A program made the translations under genes and the position numbers. Shown piece after piece: positions 33,294 to 43,201 of a stretch of 64,000 nucleotides of DNA. Location of the stretch: NCBI GenBank assembly GCA_021841865.1, contig JAKCDM010000004.1:1-64000 (forward strand), in the 5' to 3' direction. Under the pieces are notes generated by a model. That model was not told where the DNA came from. It saw only the letters and a list, made by a program, of their open reading frames with translations, and ran no database searches. This DNA comes from Pseudomonadota bacterium (GTDB taxonomy: Bacteria > Pseudomonadota > Gammaproteobacteria > Burkholderiales > Burkholderiaceae_C). Numbering within the stretch: position 1 is the stretch's first letter; the number at the start of each line of letters is the position of its first letter.

Positions 33294-35921
33294 TCAGCTC
33301 GGCGCGCTTGCCCCAAGCTGCTGTTGCACGCGCTGCGCGCAGGCTTGCACCGGCTGCAGCCAGGCCAGGGTCTGCGCCGCCTCGGCTGGCCTGCCCGCAT
33401 GGTCGCGCGCCTGGCGCTCGAGTTGGTCGCAGGCCAGGCCCAGCGCCGCGGCTCCCACGGTGCGTGACGAGGACTTGAGCCGGTGCGCCAGTTCACCGAG
33501 TCGCGCCGGGTCGGCCGCTTCGGCGGCTTGCTGCATGCACTGCAGCGCAGTGCGCAGTTCGTCGGCGTACTGGGCCAGCAGCGAGTCGACCACCCGCGGG
33601 TCGTCGCCCACCAGCATGCGCAGCTGCGCCAGGTCCAGGCAGCTCGCCTGCGGCTCGAGCGCCGCGCCCTCGCCGGGCCGGCGCGCGAGCAGCGCGTGCA
33701 GCGTCGCGCGCAGCGCGTCGAGCGCGACCGGCTTGGTCAGGTGCACGTCCATGCCGCTGGCCAGCGCGCGCTCGAGTTCGTCGGCATGCGCCGCCGCGGT
33801 GAGGGCGATGATCGGGGTGGCAGGGCGCTGCGCGGCTCGCTCGCGGCGGCGGATTTCGCGCGCCAGCTCGAAGCCGTCCATGTCCGGCATGTGCAGGTCG
33901 GTGAGCACGGCTGCGAAGGGCTCGTGCTCCCACAGGCTCAGCGCGGCCCGCCCGTCCGGCGCGATGCGGGCTCGCAGGCCCAGGTGGCGCAATTGCAGCC
34001 CGATGACCTCGCGATTGGTCGGATTGTCCTCGGCCACCAGCACCGGCAGTTCGCCGGGCAGCGGTTGCGTCGCGGGTGCGGCCGGCGCTGCCGGCGCCGG
34101 CGACGGCGACGGCGCCTGTCGGGCCTCGCGCAACGCGAGCGTCACGTCCAGGCGGCTGCCCATGCCGGGGCGGCTGCGCGCGCGGATGCTGCCTCCCATC
34201 GCCGCCACCAGCTCGCGGCTGATCGCCAGCCCCAGCCCGGTCCCGGTCTGGCGCGGGGCATTCGCGCCCTGCGCCTGCTCGAAGGGGCGGAACAGTCGCG
34301 CCAGCGTGGAGGCTTCCATGCCCACGCCGTTGTCGCGCACGCTGATGCCCAGGCGCGGCGCGTGCGCGTGGCCACCGAGGCGGCGCACATGCACCCGTAC
34401 CTCGCCGTGGCGGGTCAGGCCGCTGGAGAACTTCACCGCGTTCGACACCAGGTTCGACAGCACCTGGCGCAGCCGTCCGGCATCGCCCCGGATATGCCGA
34501 GGCACGTCGGGCTCGATGTGCATGCTCAGCGAACACCCGCCGCGCGCGGCCGCGTCGGCGTACAACTCGGTCACGTCGGCCAGCAGCGCCTGCAGGTCCA
34601 CCACCTCGTCCACCAGTTCGAGCCTGCCTGCCTCGATCTTGGAGAAATCCAGCAGGTCGTTGACGATGCCCAGCAGCGAGACCGCCGAGCGATGGCTGAC
34701 CTCGGCCATGCGTCGCTGGGCCGGCTGCAGGGAACTGCGCAGCAGCAGCTCCAGCATGCCCACGACCCCGTTCAGGGGCGTGCGCACCTCGTGGCTGACC
34801 TTGGCCACGAAGCGCGACTTGGCATCGTCGGCGCGCTGCGCGACGATGCGCCGGGTCTCGCTGTCGCGCACCAGTTCCACCTGGCGCATCAGCAGCAGCA
34901 CCAGCAGCGTGGCCAGCAGCACCGCGCCGAACACCACGCGGGCCTCGTTTCCCGGCCCGAGCGGGTGGGCAGCATAGGCGAGCACGCGCCACTGGCGCTG
35001 CCCGATGTCGAACACCCGCTGGTAGGACACGGCGCCGCGCAGCAGCTCGGAGGGGCTGCTGCGCAGTCCGCGCGGGTACAGCACCTGCGCGGGCCGCCCC
35101 GGTGACGCGCCGGTCTGGTCGAACACCGCCAGGCGCGGCGCGGCGCTTCCCGGCCGCGCCGCGCCGTCGCTGCCCTGGAGCAGCGAGCCGATGCTGAACA
35201 CCCCGAGCACGAAGCCGCGCAGCGCGCCGTGCCGCCCCGCGCGCTGCGCGTCGAACACCGGGTAGAACACCAGGAAGCCGTATTGCCCGTCGGGGTCCTG
35301 GACCAGGGCCACGCGTGCCGTGGCCACCATCTTCCCGCTGGCGGCGGCGCGCTCCAGCGCCAGGCGACGCACCGGATTGGAGTTGAGGTCGAAGCCGAGT
35401 GCCGCGCGATTGCCGTGCAGGGGCTCGACGTAGTAGACGGGGAAATATTCGTCGCGCGCGGCTTCCGGGCGCATGGCGCCGTCGGGCGAGCGCGCTGTGA
35501 TGTGGAAGCCCGGGGCGCCGTCTGCATGGGCCCGGGCCTCGAGCGCGGCGCGTCCCGCGCCGTCGACACGCGGGATCCACTCCAGCGCACGGATCGACGG
35601 GTTGCGCCGCAGCAGCGGGTCGCAGAATGCCTGGAACTGGGCGCGGCGCACATGCGACGCGACATCCATGAAGGCGCGCAGCGCGACCAGATCGTTCAAC
35701 GCCGCGTTGAGTCGCGCGTCGACCTGCAGCACGCGCTGCTGGGCCACCTGCTCGAACTGACCCTGCATCCGCGAGGACTCGGCCTTGCGCAGCGAGTCCG
35801 CGAGGGCCCAGGCGACCGCCAATCCTGCCAGCGCGACCACCAGGTAAGGCAGCCAGGACCTGGCATGATCGAGGCCGGGCCGGGCAGCACCCGGCCGGTC
35901 CGCGGGATCAGGCTCGGGCAT
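33294..35921 (-). CDS. CHASE-domain hybrid sensor histidine kinase (CHASE-HisKA-HATPase-REC-Hpt)
   Basis: ALEWIPRVDGAGRAALEARAHADG ... YFPVYYVEPLHGNRAALGFDLNSNP (CHASE), VSHEVRTPLNGVVGMLELLL, TDLHMPDMDGFE, AHRLKSSSRTVGA. Confidence 0.94.
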   Translation of the reverse strand: MPEPDPADRPGAARPGLDHARSWLPYLVVALAGLAVAWALADSLRKAESSRMQGQFEQVAQQRVLQVDARLNAALNDLVALRAFMDVASHVRRAQFQAFCDPLLRRNPSIRALEWIPRVDGAGRAALEARAHADGAPGFHITARSPDGAMRPEAARDEYFPVYYVEPLHGNRAALGFDLNSNPVRRLALERAAASGKMVATARVALVQDPDGQYGFLVFYPVFDAQRAGRHGALRGFVLGVFSIGSLLQGSDGAARPGSAAPRLAVFDQTGASPGRPAQVLYPRGLRSSPSELLRGAVSYQRVFDIGQRQWRVLAYAAHPLGPGNEARVVFGAVLLATLLVLLLMRQVELVRDSETRRIVAQRADDAKSRFVAKVSHEVRTPLNGVVGMLELLLRSSLQPAQRRMAEVSHRSAVSLLGIVNDLLDFSKIEAGRLELVDEVVDLQALLADVTELYADAAARGGCSLSMHIEPDVPRHIRGDAGRLRQVLSNLVSNAVKFSSGLTRHGEVRVHVRRLGGHAHAPRLGISVRDNGVGMEASTLARLFRPFEQAQGANAPRQTGTGLGLAISRELVAAMGGSIRARSRPGMGSRLDVTLALREARQAPSPSPAPAAPAAPATQPLPGELPVLVAEDNPTNREVIGLQLRHLGLRARIAPDGRAALSLWEHEPFAAVLTDLHMPDMDGFELAREIRRRERAAQRPATPIIALTAAAHADELERALASGMDVHLTKPVALDALRATLHALLARRPGEGAALEPQASCLDLAQLRMLVGDDPRVVDSLLAQYADELRTALQCMQQAAEAADPARLGELAHRLKSSSRTVGAAALGLACDQLERQARDHAGRPAEAAQTLAWLQPVQACAQRVQQQLGASAPS

Positions 35922-37215
35922 GGTCGGGCCGTTCGCTGCCGCCGCCGTCGGGCGCCGTCAGGCCGAGTTCCAGCACGCGCTCGCGCCAGAGCTCGTGCCA
36001 GCGCGGCAACTGCTCCCCGGCCAGCGGACGCGAGATGAAATAGCCTTGCGCCAGGTGCACGCCGTGGCAGCGACAGAAATCCCAGTCGAGCCGGTCCTCG
36101 ATGCCCTCGGCGACGACCCGCATGCCCAGGGCCTGGCCGAGCTGGGTGCACGAGTCGAACAGCACCGTGCCGCGCAGCGACGCGTGCGCGGCGTGGGTGA
36201 AGTCACGATCGATCTTGATCTCGTCGAACACCGCGTCGCGCAGCTTGGACAGCGTCGAGTAGCCGCTGCCGAAGTCGTCGATGGACAACGCGAAGCGTCG
36301 CAGCCGCAGACGGCTCATGATCTCGACCAGCAGGCGCGGGTCGTCGCCCAGTCCGCTTTCCGTGACCTCGATGACCAGGTCCTCGGGTTGCGTGCCATGG
36401 TGCCGCGCGCGCTCGCTGACCAGCTCGGCGAAGCCCAGGTCCCCCAGGTCCTGCGCCGACGCGTTCACCGACATCGACAGCGCCAGGCCCTGTGCGCGCC
36501 ATCGCGCCTGCTGCGCCAGTGCGGTCTCGAGCACGCTGCGCGTCAGCTCCCTGATCGCACCGCAGGATTCCGCCAGTGGCACGAAACGCGCCGGCGAGAT
36601 CAGCCCATGCGCGGCATGCCGCCAGCGCGCGAGGGACTCGACGCCGACCAGGCGGCCGTCGCGCAGGTCGACCTTCGGCTGGTACATGCAGCCGATGTCG
36701 CCGCGGGCCAGCGCCTGGCGCAGCGCCTGTTCATCGGGCTGCCAGCCGCCGTCAGCCCCGGCGCTCGTCGCACGCGCATCGGCACAGCCCCACGGCAGCG
36801 CCTGCAGCTGTTCGAGGCGCGGCGGCTTGCCCAGCGTGCCCGGCACGTTCAGTCCGTGCGAGCGCGCCAGTTGCATCACCGACTCCAGCACTTCCGGCGC
36901 CTCGCCGCTGAACGGAACGACGCAGCCCGCGTATCCGATGTCGGCCAGGTGGCGAAAAAAAGCCATGCCGTCGATGCCGGGCATGTTCAGGTCCACGACG
37001 ATGCCGTCGAACTCGCACGCGCGCTCACGCAGCCGCTGCAGCGCTGCCGCCGGGTCGGTCTCGCCGACCGCTTCGAAGGGGCCTATGCGGCCGAGCATCA
37101 CGCCCAGCAGCGTGGCCATGAACGGATCGTCGTCGACGATCAGCACCCGCGCCGCCTGCGCCGCCTCGCCCGCGCTGGTGGCGCGCTCGGGCGATGGCGG
37201 GGTGGTCGTGGGCAT
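35908..37215 (-). CDS. REC-EAL response regulator (c-di-GMP phosphodiesterase, VieA-like)
   Basis: VLIVDDDPFM ... VVDLNMPGIDG (REC); VGVESLARWRH, MSVNASAQDL, VIEVTESGL, SIDDFGSGYSTL, AEGIEDRLDWDF, QGYFISRPL (EAL). Confidence 0.93.
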   Translation of the reverse strand: MPTTTPPSPERATSAGEAAQAARVLIVDDDPFMATLLGVMLGRIGPFEAVGETDPAAALQRLRERACEFDGIVVDLNMPGIDGMAFFRHLADIGYAGCVVPFSGEAPEVLESVMQLARSHGLNVPGTLGKPPRLEQLQALPWGCADARATSAGADGGWQPDEQALRQALARGDIGCMYQPKVDLRDGRLVGVESLARWRHAAHGLISPARFVPLAESCGAIRELTRSVLETALAQQARWRAQGLALSMSVNASAQDLGDLGFAELVSERARHHGTQPEDLVIEVTESGLGDDPRLLVEIMSRLRLRRFALSIDDFGSGYSTLSKLRDAVFDEIKIDRDFTHAAHASLRGTVLFDSCTQLGQALGMRVVAEGIEDRLDWDFCRCHGVHLAQGYFISRPLAGEQLPRWHELWRERVLELGLTAPDGGGSERPDHARA

Positions 37216-37385
37216 GGGTGGCGCGAGCGGGGCATCGTTCGCGCAATGAGCACGCGCGAAGATGGACTTTCGCCGAAGCTTACGCTAACGCGGTCTTGCC
37301 GGGCCTCGGCGATCGCCAAGTCAACTCGAAGTCCAGTGCACTATTGCACAGGTTCGGGGAATTTTCGGCTCACGTTCACACCTTC

Positions 37386-40300
37386 TCAGGCCTGCACGTG
37401 GCGTCGCGCGGGGTCGGCCTCGTTGGCCGCTTCCTCCGCATCGCCCCGGTCGTCGCCGGCGGCGCCCATGCTCCAGCTGAGCTGGTGCAGCGCGCGCACC
37501 AGGCGGTCGGACGCGCGGTCCAGCGCGCCCGCGCCCAGGCTGGCCAGCACCTGTTCGCGGCGGTCCGTCTCCTGCGCCTCGCGCAGCAGGTCCCCGGCCT
37601 GCCGGTGGAACTCCGTGTGCAGGTGCCGCGCACGCTGAAAGGCCGTTCGCGTGGCGGGCCAGATGGTGTCGGCGTGGCGGCGCATCCAGCGTCCCAGCAG
37701 GCAGGCATCGTCGCGGCACACCACGCGCCACTGCAGCGCCGAGCCCTCGCCGCGCAGGCTGCGCATCAAGGTGTCGCGGTACTGCTGGTGGGACACGATG
37801 ATGCGCTGCCAGTCCAGCGGCGCGATGTCCCGGCTGTACAGCAGCGCCTGGCGCCCCAGCGCGGTGTCGGGGCTGCCTGCATCGAGTTCCCAATGCCAGG
37901 TCTGCAGCCATGCCGCGAGTTTCTCGGCCGGCATCGGGCGGGCCAGCGCATAGCCCTGGCCGCGCTCGACCCCCAGCGCCAGCGCCATCTCGACCAGCTC
38001 GGGGCTTTCCAGGCCTTCCATGGTCACCTGCATGTTCAGGCCCTGCGCCATGCGCACCAGCGCGCCGACGAAGGAGATGGTCTTCACCGGCTCCTCCTGC
38101 GCCTGCTGCACGATGTGCTGGTCGATCTTCACCGTGTGGAAAGGCAGGCTGCGCATGCGCCGCAGGCTGCTGTAGCCCGAACCCAGGTCGTCCATGATCA
38201 GGCGCACGCCCAGGCGCGAAAGGCTGGCGATGGCCTCGTCGCGGCGCTGGCTGTCGAACTGGTCCTCGTGGGTCTCCAGCAGCTCAAGGTGCAGGCGCGA
38301 GGCGTCGATGCGGCTGTGCTCGAGGGCCTGCGCGATCCACTGCGGGCACTCCGGGTCCATCAGCACGCTGGGCGGCAGGTTCAGGCTGGCGCCCAGGCGC
38401 AGGCCCTGCGCGTCCCAGGCGCGCAGCCAGTGCAGGGTCAGCTCGAGCCCCTTGCGGAACAGGATGCGCAATTCGTGGTTGCCGAAGGCTTCCAGGAAGG
38501 CGCCGGGATGCAGCACCGTGTCGCCGTCCTGCAGGCGCGCCAGCACCTCGACCTCGTCGGGCTGGCCGGTCAGCAGGTTGACCAGCGGCTGCACGTGCAG
38601 GCGCAGGCCTCCGCCGTACAGCAGGTCGTGCAGGCGGCTGCGCCGGGTGGCCGCGATCGGATGCTGGGTCGGGCCTCCGAGAGCGCGCTGGAACGCCGGT
38701 CCCAGGTGATGCTGCGCCGATTCGAGCCACATGCGCATGCCCGGGGCCTCGAATTGCCCGGGATGGCGTCCGAGCAGCGTGATCACCTGGTGCACGTGGC
38801 CGTGGCGGTCGAGCAGCGGAATCGCCGCGGCGCTGCGCACGCCGAATCGGCTCGCGATGGGCCCGTAGCCGTCCATCGCCGATTCGTTGGCGTCGGTGGC
38901 GATCACGCCGCTGCTCCACGCGCGCTGCGTGGCTCCCGGACGCTCCAGCGCACCGCGCCGGAAGTCGGGGTCGAGCCCGGCGTCGCGCAGCGCCTGCAGG
39001 TAGGCCTGGGCCTCGCCGAACCCGAACTCCAGCACATAGCGGTTGTCGGCATCGGGCCTGCCGCAGGCCACGCCGCACACTCCAGGCAGCTCGCCCAGGT
39101 GGGCCACCACGTGGCGCGGCAACTGCCCCGACTGTTCCCAGGCGCCCAGGCGCAGTTCCATGGCCGCCAGGTGCGCCTGGCGCTGGTGCTGGACCTCCAG
39201 CGCGCCGCGTTGCGCCGCCTGCAGGTCGAGCGCCACGCGCTGCTGCAGCAGGGTCTGCAGGCGAACGCGGGCATCCAGGCGAAGCGGAAGGCGCTGCGTG
39301 GCGCGCTGCAGCGCGGCACCGTACTGGCTGAGCGCGGCCATCGATGCCGCGCCATCGACGCCGATCATCGCGTGCACGCGCCCCAGGCGCAGCGCGGCAA
39401 GCTCCTGCTCGTGGCGCTGCAGCCGCGGCTGCAGCAGGCGCCGCAGATGCCGCTGCTGGTGCTGCTTGAGACCCTGCACCTCCGGGGCGGTGAGCATCGC
39501 CAGGATGCGTGCGTTGGCGCTGTCCGGCGCAAGCTGGCGCCAGTAGGACTCGACGAACTCCTCGTCCACCGCGACCAGCTCGGCCTGCACCTTGTCGAGC
39601 AGCTCCGCGGCCGCCTCGCCGTACGGGTCGAGCTCGTCCTCCTGCGCGTCGTCGACCTGCTCGCCGCTGAGCAGCCACCAGCGCTGACGCCGCGCCTTGG
39701 CCGCCTTGGTCGCGTACAACGCGCCGTCGGCCTGGCGCAGCAGCGTGTCGGGCTCCTCGCCATGCTCGGGGTACAGCGCCAGGCCCATGCTCATGCCGAC
39801 CTCGGCCAGCACCCCGGGGCCGAGCTCGAAGGGCTCCTCGACCGCACGGTGCAGGCGCGCCAGCACGGTGGCCAGCACCTGGCGCGGGTGCGCGGCGTCG
39901 AGCTCGTCGAGCACCAGCACGAATTCATCGCCACCCAGGCGAGCCAGCAGGTCCGATTCGCGCAACTGGGCCTGCAGGCGCGTGCCGAGCTGTTGCAGCA
40001 GGCGGTCGCCGGCGGCGTGTCCGTAGGTGTCGTTGACAGGCTTGAAGTCGTCCAGGTCGAGCACGCCGATGGCCAGCTGGTGCCCGCCGCGGCGCGCGCG
40101 CGCCATCGCATGCGGCAGGTGCTGCTCGAGCGCCAGCCGGTTGGCCAGCCCGGTCAGTGCGTCGTGGCGCGCCAGATGTGCCTGCTCCGACTCGCGCGCC
40201 TGCAGCATCTGCTTGAGGTCGATCTCGGTCAGCGCCTGGCTGATCAGCTCCGCTGTGCGTACCAGCGTGTCCTGCACGATGGCGTCGAGGTCGGCGCTGT

Positions 40301-42302
40301 CGTTGGCCACCAGCACCAGCATCGCCCACAGGCGCCCGGAGCGGCGCAGCGGCAGGGTCATCGCCTCCTGCGTGCAGCCGGCAAGCGCGTAGGCCTGCCA
40401 GGGCTGGATGAGCACCGAATCGGGGTCGGTCTCGATGGCGCGCACCGCGTCGCGCCAGGTGCGCGACATCGCGTCCGTGCCGTCGCGCCGGACCTGCAGC
40501 GGCAGCGGCTCGAGGGTTTCGCGGGCATGGCCGGCGGCCGCCACGACGCGCAGGCGCCCCTGTTCGTCGGGCTGGCCGATCCACGCCGCGGCGAACAGGC
40601 CGCCTTCGAGCAGGCGCGTGCACGCGGTCTCCAGCAGCTCGCTCTCGCTGCGCGACGCGATCAGCACGTCGATCTGCGAGAACACCGTGCGCATCAGCTC
40701 GCCCTGGCGCTCGTGGGCCCGCAATGCGTCCTGTTGCGCGGCCACCAGGTCGACGCGCTCCAGTCCGCGCCCGATGTATTCGCCCATGTCGCCCAGCAGG
40801 TTGGCGAACTCCGGGTCGAAGTCCAGTGCCTCGTCCCAGTACAGCGACAGCACCGCGTCGAGCCGGCCGTGACGCCGGATGGGCAGCGCGGCGCAGGCGT
40901 GCAGCGCATGGGCTTCGGCATGCGCGCTCCAGGGCCGTCCGGCGCGCGCGAGATCATCGTGGAACTGCGCGCTGGCGCTGCGCCACACCGCGCCGAACGG
41001 GCCCGCCGCGTCGGCCGGGGCACCGAGCTCGCCGCGCGTGCCGCGCAGGTAATCGGTGACTCCGGCGCTGGCGAGGACCTGCTCGCGCTGCGCGGCGTCG
41101 GCGCGCCCGATCCAGGCCAGGCGAACTCCGCACAGGTCCACCGCGGCCTGGCAGATGCCCTGCAGCAGGTCGTCCTCGTTCGCAGCGGCGGCGATCAATT
41201 CGTGGGTCCTGGCGCGAAACGACTGCATGCGCGACAGGCGCTGCAGCGTTCGCAGCGCCTGCGCGCTCGCACGTTGCAGCCGGCGCGCGCGGCGCTCGCT
41301 CGCGGCGAGCAGCCCGGCGCCGAGCACGAGCGCCAACGCGAGCAACGCGACGTAGGGCAGCAGTGCGCGACCCCACGCGACGAGCAGGGTGCGTTGCGGC
41401 ACGGCCGCGATGATCACATAGGGCAGGCCGTCCACGCGCACCCAGGCCCCCAGCGCTCGCTGCGCCACGTCGCCCACGGTGCCGTGGAACGAGCCGCTAC
41501 CCGAGCCCAGCAGCGAGCGCAGCGGAAGGTCCAGGCGTTGCGGTCGCCCGAACGGCGTCATGCTCACCGGGTAGCCTGCCTGCGGCAGGCCGTCGACATC
41601 GCGCACGACGGTCAGGCTGGCGCTGGGGTAATGGGCCAGCAGCGCGCGCAGCGCCGCGGACAGCTGGTGCGGGTGCGTCACCACCAGCCAGCGCCCGCCG
41701 CCGACCCGCAGCATCTCCCCGCTCAGCCAGCTTCCGGTGCCCGTGGGGCCGGGCACCGGCGGCAGCGCGCAGCGCGCGGCGCCGCCCGCGCAGCCCGACC
41801 AGGCCTGGCGCGTGCTCGGCGCCAGCGACGCATCGTTCGCCGGATAGGGCGGCGCATCGCGTGCCGCGGCCAGCACCTGCCCGGAGTCGTCGAGCAGCAG
41901 CAGGTTGGTGTTGCCGGGCCACAGCGCCAGCGCATGACGCAGTTCGGCAGCCGGGTCGGTCCTTCCGTCCAGATCGGCTGCGATCTGGCGCAGGTGCGAC
42001 ACTCGCGTGTCGAGTTCGTTGCGCATGTCCTGCGCGTATACGTCGGCACCGGCGCGCAGCGTGGCGAGCGCGCGCTGGCGCGTCGCCGTCCATTGCTGCC
42101 AGGCGAAACCTGCGGCGGCCACGACCAGCACCAGCACGAACACGAACGCGGCCCTGGCGCGCACGGGCTGCGGGTCCATCACGGGCGTGCGGGAGGGTGT
42201 TCGGGCTGGCGGCTGGGGCATCGCGGCTTCGTACGGATCACGGCCCCGGCGTGGCGACAACGGGCCGATGCAACTCCGGAGCCGGGCTCCGGGTGCATAC
42301 AC
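37386..42302 (-). CDS. multi-sensor GGDEF-EAL protein: periplasmic cache-like sensor, GAF-like regions, GGDEF, globin-like, GAF-like, EAL, CZB-like
   Basis: RESDLLARLGGDEFVLVL; EVLARL, LNLPPSVL, MDDLGSGYSSL, VKIDQ, MEGLES, GQGYALARP; HLRRLLQPRLQRHEQELAALRLGRVHAMIGVD; DDACLLGRWMRRH...FHRQAGDLL. Alternative start MPQPPA at 42221. Confidence 0.9.
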   Translation of the reverse strand: MYAPGARLRSCIGPLSPRRGRDPYEAAMPQPPARTPSRTPVMDPQPVRARAAFVFVLVLVVAAAGFAWQQWTATRQRALATLRAGADVYAQDMRNELDTRVSHLRQIAADLDGRTDPAAELRHALALWPGNTNLLLLDDSGQVLAAARDAPPYPANDASLAPSTRQAWSGCAGGAARCALPPVPGPTGTGSWLSGEMLRVGGGRWLVVTHPHQLSAALRALLAHYPSASLTVVRDVDGLPQAGYPVSMTPFGRPQRLDLPLRSLLGSGSGSFHGTVGDVAQRALGAWVRVDGLPYVIIAAVPQRTLLVAWGRALLPYVALLALALVLGAGLLAASERRARRLQRASAQALRTLQRLSRMQSFRARTHELIAAAANEDDLLQGICQAAVDLCGVRLAWIGRADAAQREQVLASAGVTDYLRGTRGELGAPADAAGPFGAVWRSASAQFHDDLARAGRPWSAHAEAHALHACAALPIRRHGRLDAVLSLYWDEALDFDPEFANLLGDMGEYIGRGLERVDLVAAQQDALRAHERQGELMRTVFSQIDVLIASRSESELLETACTRLLEGGLFAAAWIGQPDEQGRLRVVAAAGHARETLEPLPLQVRRDGTDAMSRTWRDAVRAIETDPDSVLIQPWQAYALAGCTQEAMTLPLRRSGRLWAMLVLVANDSADLDAIVQDTLVRTAELISQALTEIDLKQMLQARESEQAHLARHDALTGLANRLALEQHLPHAMARARRGGHQLAIGVLDLDDFKPVNDTYGHAAGDRLLQQLGTRLQAQLRESDLLARLGGDEFVLVLDELDAAHPRQVLATVLARLHRAVEEPFELGPGVLAEVGMSMGLALYPEHGEEPDTLLRQADGALYATKAAKARRQRWWLLSGEQVDDAQEDELDPYGEAAAELLDKVQAELVAVDEEFVESYWRQLAPDSANARILAMLTAPEVQGLKQHQQRHLRRLLQPRLQRHEQELAALRLGRVHAMIGVDGAASMAALSQYGAALQRATQRLPLRLDARVRLQTLLQQRVALDLQAAQRGALEVQHQRQAHLAAMELRLGAWEQSGQLPRHVVAHLGELPGVCGVACGRPDADNRYVLEFGFGEAQAYLQALRDAGLDPDFRRGALERPGATQRAWSSGVIATDANESAMDGYGPIASRFGVRSAAAIPLLDRHGHVHQVITLLGRHPGQFEAPGMRMWLESAQHHLGPAFQRALGGPTQHPIAATRRSRLHDLLYGGGLRLHVQPLVNLLTGQPDEVEVLARLQDGDTVLHPGAFLEAFGNHELRILFRKGLELTLHWLRAWDAQGLRLGASLNLPPSVLMDPECPQWIAQALEHSRIDASRLHLELLETHEDQFDSQRRDEAIASLSRLGVRLIMDDLGSGYSSLRRMRSLPFHTVKIDQHIVQQAQEEPVKTISFVGALVRMAQGLNMQVTMEGLESPELVEMALALGVERGQGYALARPMPAEKLAAWLQTWHWELDAGSPDTALGRQALLYSRDIAPLDWQRIIVSHQQYRDTLMRSLRGEGSALQWRVVCRDDACLLGRWMRRHADTIWPATRTAFQRARHLHTEFHRQAGDLLREAQETDRREQVLASLGAGALDRASDRLVRALHQLSWSMGAAGDDRGDAEEAANEADPARRHVQA

Positions 42303-42389
42303 CCTCGCATTGTGACAGTGCTTACGCTCGCGCGGAGCAAACGCCGACCCCGGGTTTCGGGGGGATTCGCGCGGCTCGCCCGGGGGCCG

Positions 42390-43175
42390 TCAATAGAACA
42401 CGAAGGTCGCCTGGGTCGGGCTGTTGATCGTGTTGTAGGCGCTGGTGTAGTCGGCCGACAGCGTGGCCAGCGCGCCGGTGTTCCAGGTCAGCAGGTTCGC
42501 CGCATTGGGGTCGTCGACCACGCTCTGCCCACTCACCAGGTACTGCTCGACGCCGCGCAGCACCAGGTCCTGCGGGTCGCCGGAGTTCGGCGCCGACGTG
42601 ATCTGCGTGGCGCCGAGCTGGAACTCGCCGGCGACGCGCGAGGCCGCCAGCGCGTAGTTGCTCATGCTCAATCCACCCGCCATGGCCTGCGCCATCGACG
42701 TCGCGATGGTCGTCAGCGGAGTGACCAGCACGTTCACGGTGCCGCCGCCGCCGATGAAGGCCACCGCCTGCAGCGCGGCGTTGGTGGCGCTGAGCGCGTT
42801 CAGCGACACGGTCGTTCCCGACGCGCGATTCGCGTAGCTTCCCCCGGTGATCTGCACCAGCACCGGGCCGTAGAAGTTCGGCAGCGCCTGCGAGAACTGA
42901 CCCTGGGAGTCCGTGCTGATGCACGATGTGGTGAGCAGGGTCCCGGTATTGGCCGGCGGGCTGACCGTCGTGTTGAGCGGGTTGCCCTGGCCGTTCGCGA
43001 TCGCGTACAGGCAGACGTTGTAGGAACCGGTGACCGGCGCCGCGGCGTCCATCAGCACCTGCCCATCGAGCGTGGACCCCGAGTACTTGTTGCTGGTGCC
43101 GCCTCCGCAGGCGGCGAGCACGAGGCTCAGGCTCAGTGCGGCAAGGGTCGCACCGCGGCGCAATGGGCAAGACAT
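42390..43175 (-). CDS. putative secreted lipoprotein of unknown function
   Basis: Signal peptide with lipobox LVLAACGGG; Ser/Thr/Ala-rich remainder. Confidence 0.7.
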   Translation of the reverse strand: MSCPLRRGATLAALSLSLVLAACGGGTSNKYSGSTLDGQVLMDAAAPVTGSYNVCLYAIANGQGNPLNTTVSPPANTGTLLTTSCISTDSQGQFSQALPNFYGPVLVQITGGSYANRASGTTVSLNALSATNAALQAVAFIGGGGTVNVLVTPLTTIATSMAQAMAGGLSMSNYALAASRVAGEFQLGATQITSAPNSGDPQDLVLRGVEQYLVSGQSVVDDPNAANLLTWNTGALATLSADYTSAYNTINSPTQATFVFY

Positions 43176-43201
43176 GGGTGACAGCTCCGGGCTGGGGGGC
43201 T

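Follow-up and report, generated by a model that had tools for sequence, protein, structure and literature searches.

A predicted bifunctional c-di-GMP enzyme with an internal sensor globin and a C-terminal CZB-like domain

In the window, that is, the whole stretch of 64,000 nucleotides analysed here, we found a minus-strand gene for a predicted maker and destroyer of c-di-GMP whose catalytic residues are intact; the host is an acid-mine bacterium, probably a Thiomonas. The order of the domains is a transmembrane segment, a periplasmic domain, a second transmembrane segment, GAF, GAF, GGDEF, globin, GAF, EAL and CZB (Table 1). The globin precedes the GAF3–EAL output, yet within the protein as a whole it has an internal place, after GGDEF. 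On balance, we favor the view that this is a membrane-anchored bifunctional enzyme with two halves joined together, in which the globin sets mainly breakdown and the CZB domain tunes the phosphodiesterase. In the N-terminal half, the periplasmic domain and two GAF domains would control a diguanylate cyclase bearing a product-inhibition site, and signals to this half would come from the side of the membrane. In the C-terminal half, the ligand or redox state of a haem globin would be transmitted across a linker that hardly varies in length to the third GAF domain (GAF3), which would relay it to the EAL phosphodiesterase; the zinc site of the CZB domain would tune the same phosphodiesterase. The globin would govern mainly c-di-GMP breakdown and not synthesis. 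The binding of haem and of zinc, the nature of the signal (a gas or a redox state), the direction of each effect and the catalytic activity of the GGDEF domain are what we infer; the domain content and order, the conservation of catalytic and ligand residues, the recurrence and spacing of the cassette and the globin fold of the model were observed.

The open frame named in the original prediction is present and runs over 1638 codons from a GTG to the stop (37386–42302, minus strand). Its start was revised. Since the orthologs have the same methionine (M28) and the same sequence after it, and diverge upstream of it, translation most likely begins at the ATG at 42221; residue numbers nevertheless follow the frame from the GTG at 42302. 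Pfam matches on the whole protein were far beyond chance. Hydropathy analysis gave two transmembrane segments, and the stretch between them is therefore predicted to be periplasmic; it matched no Pfam family above cut-off. Every domain of the gene is under purifying selection (dN/dS 0.07–0.46). A pseudogene was rejected on the basis of this selection and of the intact frame in the orthologs, and a long plus-strand open reading frame over the same stretch (37194–43181) was rejected as a GC-rich shadow frame. A scan for promoters and terminators found none.

Table 1. Features of the gene and its neighbors (positions in the window; residues numbered from the GTG at 42302)
Feature	Residues	Position	Strand	Basis
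Whole gene		37386..42221	(-)	most likely 1611 aa from ATG 42221; Met kept in orthologs
Transmembrane segment 1	about 45-71	42090..42170	(-)	hydropathy
Predicted periplasmic domain	about 73-304	41391..42086	(-)	dN/dS 0.32-0.46
Transmembrane segment 2	about 305-337	41292..41390	(-)	hydropathy
GAF1	373-515	40758..41186	(-)	Pfam GAF_2
GAF2	545-690	40233..40670	(-)	Pfam
GGDEF diguanylate cyclase domain	711-870	39693..40172	(-)	Pfam, 5.7e-43
RxxD I-site (RESD)		39951-39962	(-)	sequence
GGDEF motif		39921-39935	(-)	sequence
Sensor globin	893-1032	39207..39626	(-)	Pfam, AF2 model, fold and profile matches
Trp at distal Tyr position (Tyr43 of DosC)	921	39540..39542	(-)	alignment with relatives
Candidate proximal haem ligand, His	977	39372..39374	(-)	74/77 relatives and solved-sensor alignment
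GAF3, between globin and EAL	1062-1212	38667..39119	(-)	comparison with relatives
EAL phosphodiesterase domain	1224-1462	37917..38633	(-)	Pfam
CZB zinc-binding domain (predicted)	1500-1575	37578..37805	(-)	Pfam and conserved ligands
Candidate CZB ligand, His	1505	37788-37790	(-)	invariant in orthologs
Candidate CZB ligand, Cys	1534	37701-37703	(-)	invariant in orthologs
Candidate CZB ligand, His	1562	37617-37619	(-)	invariant in orthologs
Candidate CZB ligand, His	1566	37605-37607	(-)	invariant in orthologs
REC-EAL response regulator, downstream neighbor		35908..37215	(-)	adjoins gene in 4 orthologous loci
CHASE hybrid histidine kinase with receiver and Hpt domains		33294..35921	(-)	open frame and domains

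The Pfam GAF_2 profile matched GAF1 and two further stretches of the whole protein. GAF-like sequence had been noted originally; the GAF domain between globin and EAL (GAF3) goes beyond that prediction. The GGDEF motif and its RESD I-site were found intact where they had been reported. The EAL domain (Pfam match at residues 1224–1456, 3.3e-43) had been described as having intact motifs; the catalytic residues are indeed conserved (E1252, N1308, E1340, E1343, D1371, D1372, K1392, E1429 and Q1449), including the glutamate of the signature, but the signature itself is spelled EVL.

A globin had been claimed at 39230–39620, and several lines of evidence agree with it. The Pfam Protoglobin profile matched residues 898–1030 with 26.3 bits on the whole protein and 31.7 bits on the isolated segment (cut-off 25). 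An AF2 model of residues 885–1062, built on a shallow alignment of eight rows (eight orthologs), had a pLDDT of 83.6. Comparison of this model with the PDB by Foldseek gave HemAT, AfGcHK and E. coli DosC, and then BpeGReg, as the best matches; the top ten had a probability of 1.00 and TM-scores of about 0.6 to 0.77, with modest E-values (about 0.007–0.02). A PDB search with the single sequence of the segment found nothing relevant and a profile was needed: a seven-member globin profile matched 2w31, AfGcHK, Tlr1989, a stressosome sensor and HemAT by sequence. In the profile alignments shown, His977 aligns on the proximal histidine of the solved sensors, and its codon is exactly the one proposed in the original prediction. 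Haem binding by this globin is predicted.

The C-terminal CZB assignment stood in part. The C-terminal Cys/His residues originally pointed out are the CZB set of three histidines and one cysteine, which is invariant in the orthologs, and all six members of the CZB alignment matched Pfam CZB (PF13682; best 5.3e-7). The window's protein itself scored 22 bits at residues 1505–1571 in the whole protein and 26.9 bits in a separate match to the profile, below the cut-off of 29.4, which one relative (L097) passed with 29.9 bits. The C-x-(L/F)-G-x-W-(Y/L) motif reads CLLGRWM here, with all defining positions kept except the last. The AF2 model of the domain (pLDDT 75, also on a shallow alignment) gave only unspecific helical bundles in the fold search and no CZB structure was matched. 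PDB searches with the CZB segment found nothing relevant by single sequence and nothing by CZB profile. The CZB assignment is supported by sequence, and the domain is a candidate zinc binder.

We gathered a family with a globin-GAF profile and assembled 77 proteins, 76 of them distinct. EAL follows the globin-GAF module directly in 74 of the 77. EAL was not part of the query, and its constant company is therefore no product of the search. The linker between globin and GAF is 42 residues long in 56 of the 77 relatives and 39 to 45 in all of them, a constancy that is partly selected for because a globin-GAF profile served to collect the family. The spacing from GAF to EAL is 20 to 25 residues in all but one, and the GGDEF–globin linker varies from 14 to 40. 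GGDEF is absent from 19 relatives. One relative has an N-terminal globin. From the position of EAL, the near-constant linker and the relatives that lack GGDEF, we conclude that the haem most likely acts on the phosphodiesterase. The original prediction had O2 or NO, zinc and an external ligand acting on both synthesis and hydrolysis; the anatomy of the family favors an action of globin-GAF on EAL rather than on both activities. Two GGDEF-globin-GAF proteins (L005, in the window's own genome, and L103) end before any EAL; they speak against this reading, since they show that globin-GAF can occur without a phosphodiesterase.

A single branch of the tree (support 100/99) has the whole CZB group on one of its sides, and the absence of GGDEF needs at least four changes. 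It is conceivable, although we hold this only tentatively, that globin-GAF-EAL is a distinct gas-to-phosphodiesterase cassette that was joined behind GGDEF in scattered Proteobacteria and has multiplied in this genus, that a Tyr-to-Trp change in the pocket shifted the signal in the window's clade, and that, together with the zinc site, separate sensors set synthesis and breakdown. It has long been asked what decides between synthesis and degradation of c-di-GMP in proteins that have both GGDEF and EAL. Here, a globin inside the protein keeps a near-constant distance to the EAL that follows it, whether or not GGDEF or CZB is present in the relative, and this offers a natural series for assigning sensors to activities.

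The distal pocket bears on what the globin could sense. The distal tyrosine, which is usual but not universal in globin-coupled sensors, stabilises bound O2 in studied sensors (PMC5549716, PMC10882959). It is replaced by Trp921 in the window's protein; hence, O2 sensing cannot be assumed, and among the signals claimed originally O2 is the least secure. The residue is Trp in all 12 close orthologs, whereas the position holds Tyr in 52 of the 77 family members, as well as in five orthologs (L154–L158) that share the architecture but are more divergent. The change is confined to the window's subclade, and within close orthologs it amounts to a built-in test of ligand choice. These observations give real weight, if somewhat short of an even chance, to a globin whose fold was kept for something other than sensing O2: it could report NO, CO or the redox state of the haem, or hold haem without gas signalling. 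His977 is kept, however, and the indole N–H of Trp921 could still hydrogen-bond O2. A more extreme possibility is that the domain no longer binds haem and serves only as a structural or dimerisation spacer. The non-haem globin-like sporulation inhibitor 3pmc was among the Foldseek matches of the model, and a shorter, divergent relative that keeps the architecture (L159) carries Gln where the proximal His would stand (GRIQALVGL), making it a natural haem-less candidate. Nevertheless, with His977 present in 74 of the 77 relatives and in every one of the 12 close orthologs, a haem-free spacer is very improbable.

The output can also be read differently. In several studied GGDEF-EAL proteins, the GGDEF domain binds GTP and activates EAL allosterically. 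If this held here, the protein would in practice be a phosphodiesterase: its GGDEF domain would mainly bind GTP, little c-di-GMP would be made and all sensors would converge on breakdown. The catalytic residues of EAL are invariant in 75 of 75 relatives, whereas the GGDEF motif is matched exactly by 50 of 58 and departs from the consensus in eight, and the relatives without GGDEF point the same way. In the window's protein, however, both GGDEF and the I-site are intact, and GGDEF is, alongside EAL, the most conserved domain; we regard this reading as less likely than the main one. We also considered that the C-terminal domain might sense oxidants through its zinc-bound cysteine and not zinc itself. 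The ligand set and the C-x-L-G-x-W motif are as in DgcZ and TlpD, in which the CZB cysteine reacts with HOCl (PMC8262984). These two proteins come from host-associated bacteria, HOCl would be no obvious signal in mine drainage, and in acid water rich in zinc, metal sensing is no less plausible; we regard oxidant sensing as rather unlikely. Our preferred reading remains the enzyme of two halves, with globin and CZB acting mainly on breakdown.

Several known systems share parts of this architecture. Protoglobin-GGDEF-EAL-CZB proteins of Acidithiobacillus (AFE_1712 and related) have already been reported (PMC6416229, PMC4331095); they unite the same four signature domains in one protein of acidophilic sulfur or iron oxidisers. 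Judged by printed description only, their globin stands before GGDEF, whereas it lies between GGDEF and EAL here, and the GAF behind the globin and the membrane-anchored periplasmic half are features of the window's protein. DcpG of Paenibacillus dendritiformis likewise combines a haem globin with both GGDEF and EAL, and its ligand decides between synthesis and breakdown; in the part of PMC10882959 covered here, it is a globin-coupled sensor of the usual kind, described without CZB, GAF or a membrane part, in contrast to the internal globin and distal Trp found here. DosC/YddV, BpeGReg, AfGcHK and HemAT have the globin fold and the proximal His in common with our protein but carry an N-terminal globin and the distal Tyr. 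CZB domains have been surveyed on EAL and GGDEF-EAL proteins, with globin listed among the accompanying domains (PMC8262984); DgcZ and other CZB proteins share the ligand set and motif, but in DgcZ, CZB is N-terminal to a GGDEF that is the sole other domain, whereas here it is C-terminal to EAL. In PMC10882959, haem gas sensors are presented as N-terminal, and a search covering part of the literature found no account of a globin that lies between GGDEF and EAL. The component domains are known, the order and the pocket residue are unusual, and what appears to be new is the internal position of the globin and its Trp pocket.

The globin-GAF profile matched in 10 of 301 genomes of the family, 13 of 369 of the class and 1 of 399 of the phylum, with the window's own genome counted each time; copy numbers per genome are minimum values, since few candidates were scored in each. 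The CZB profile matched in 24 of 28 genomes of the genus, in 22 of them within a frame of 1120 aa or more. Among those 22 are three shorter GGDEF-globin-GAF-EAL-CZB proteins without the membrane half. By these matches, the architecture appears to be kept across the genus. A search of plasmids gave one distant globin-GAF-EAL protein from Caballeronia, annotated only as EAL domain-containing; a Cupriavidus plasmid match was rejected, as it covered EAL alone in an unannotated stretch.

The REC-EAL response regulator gene adjoins the gene on the same strand, and the CHASE kinase gene overlaps the REC-EAL gene by 14 bases. The two (33294–37215, minus strand) probably form another circuit for c-di-GMP breakdown. 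We rejected a conserved operon that would include the REC-EAL gene, given a gap of 170 bases and a neighbor found in only four orthologous loci.

One relative, L121, has the order globin-GAF-GAF-GGDEF-EAL with a CZB-like tail and sits on a long branch in the tree; its order is close to one printed for an A. caldus protein (PMC6416229). Among 62 relatives without a full CZB domain, 16 carry a short H...C-x-L-(G/T)...HxxxH segment at the C-terminal end after EAL (L081, L087, L090–L092, L095, L096, L098, L099, L101, L104, L105, L108, L112, L114 and L121), by a motif that was defined after looking at the tails. The cysteine and the HxxxH line up with ligands of CZB (hhalign E 6e-4, with a probability of only 28%), and Pfam CZB matched 2 of 13. 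This segment may be a shortened zinc domain. Two small proteins, L162 (own genome, C25:3052-3402) and L163, consist of a stand-alone CZB; in L162, the first His ligand is seemingly lost, with Gln in its place.

The window's own genome (3.4 Mb) encodes eight protoglobin domains (L001–L008), seven of them in globin-GAF modules that are mostly followed by EAL, and its c-di-GMP network appears unusually globin-rich. Five of these Thiomonas paralogs (L001–L004 and L006) contain the same cassette, with 31–36% identity over about 500 to 630 aa, but are without GGDEF, the periplasmic half or a full CZB domain.
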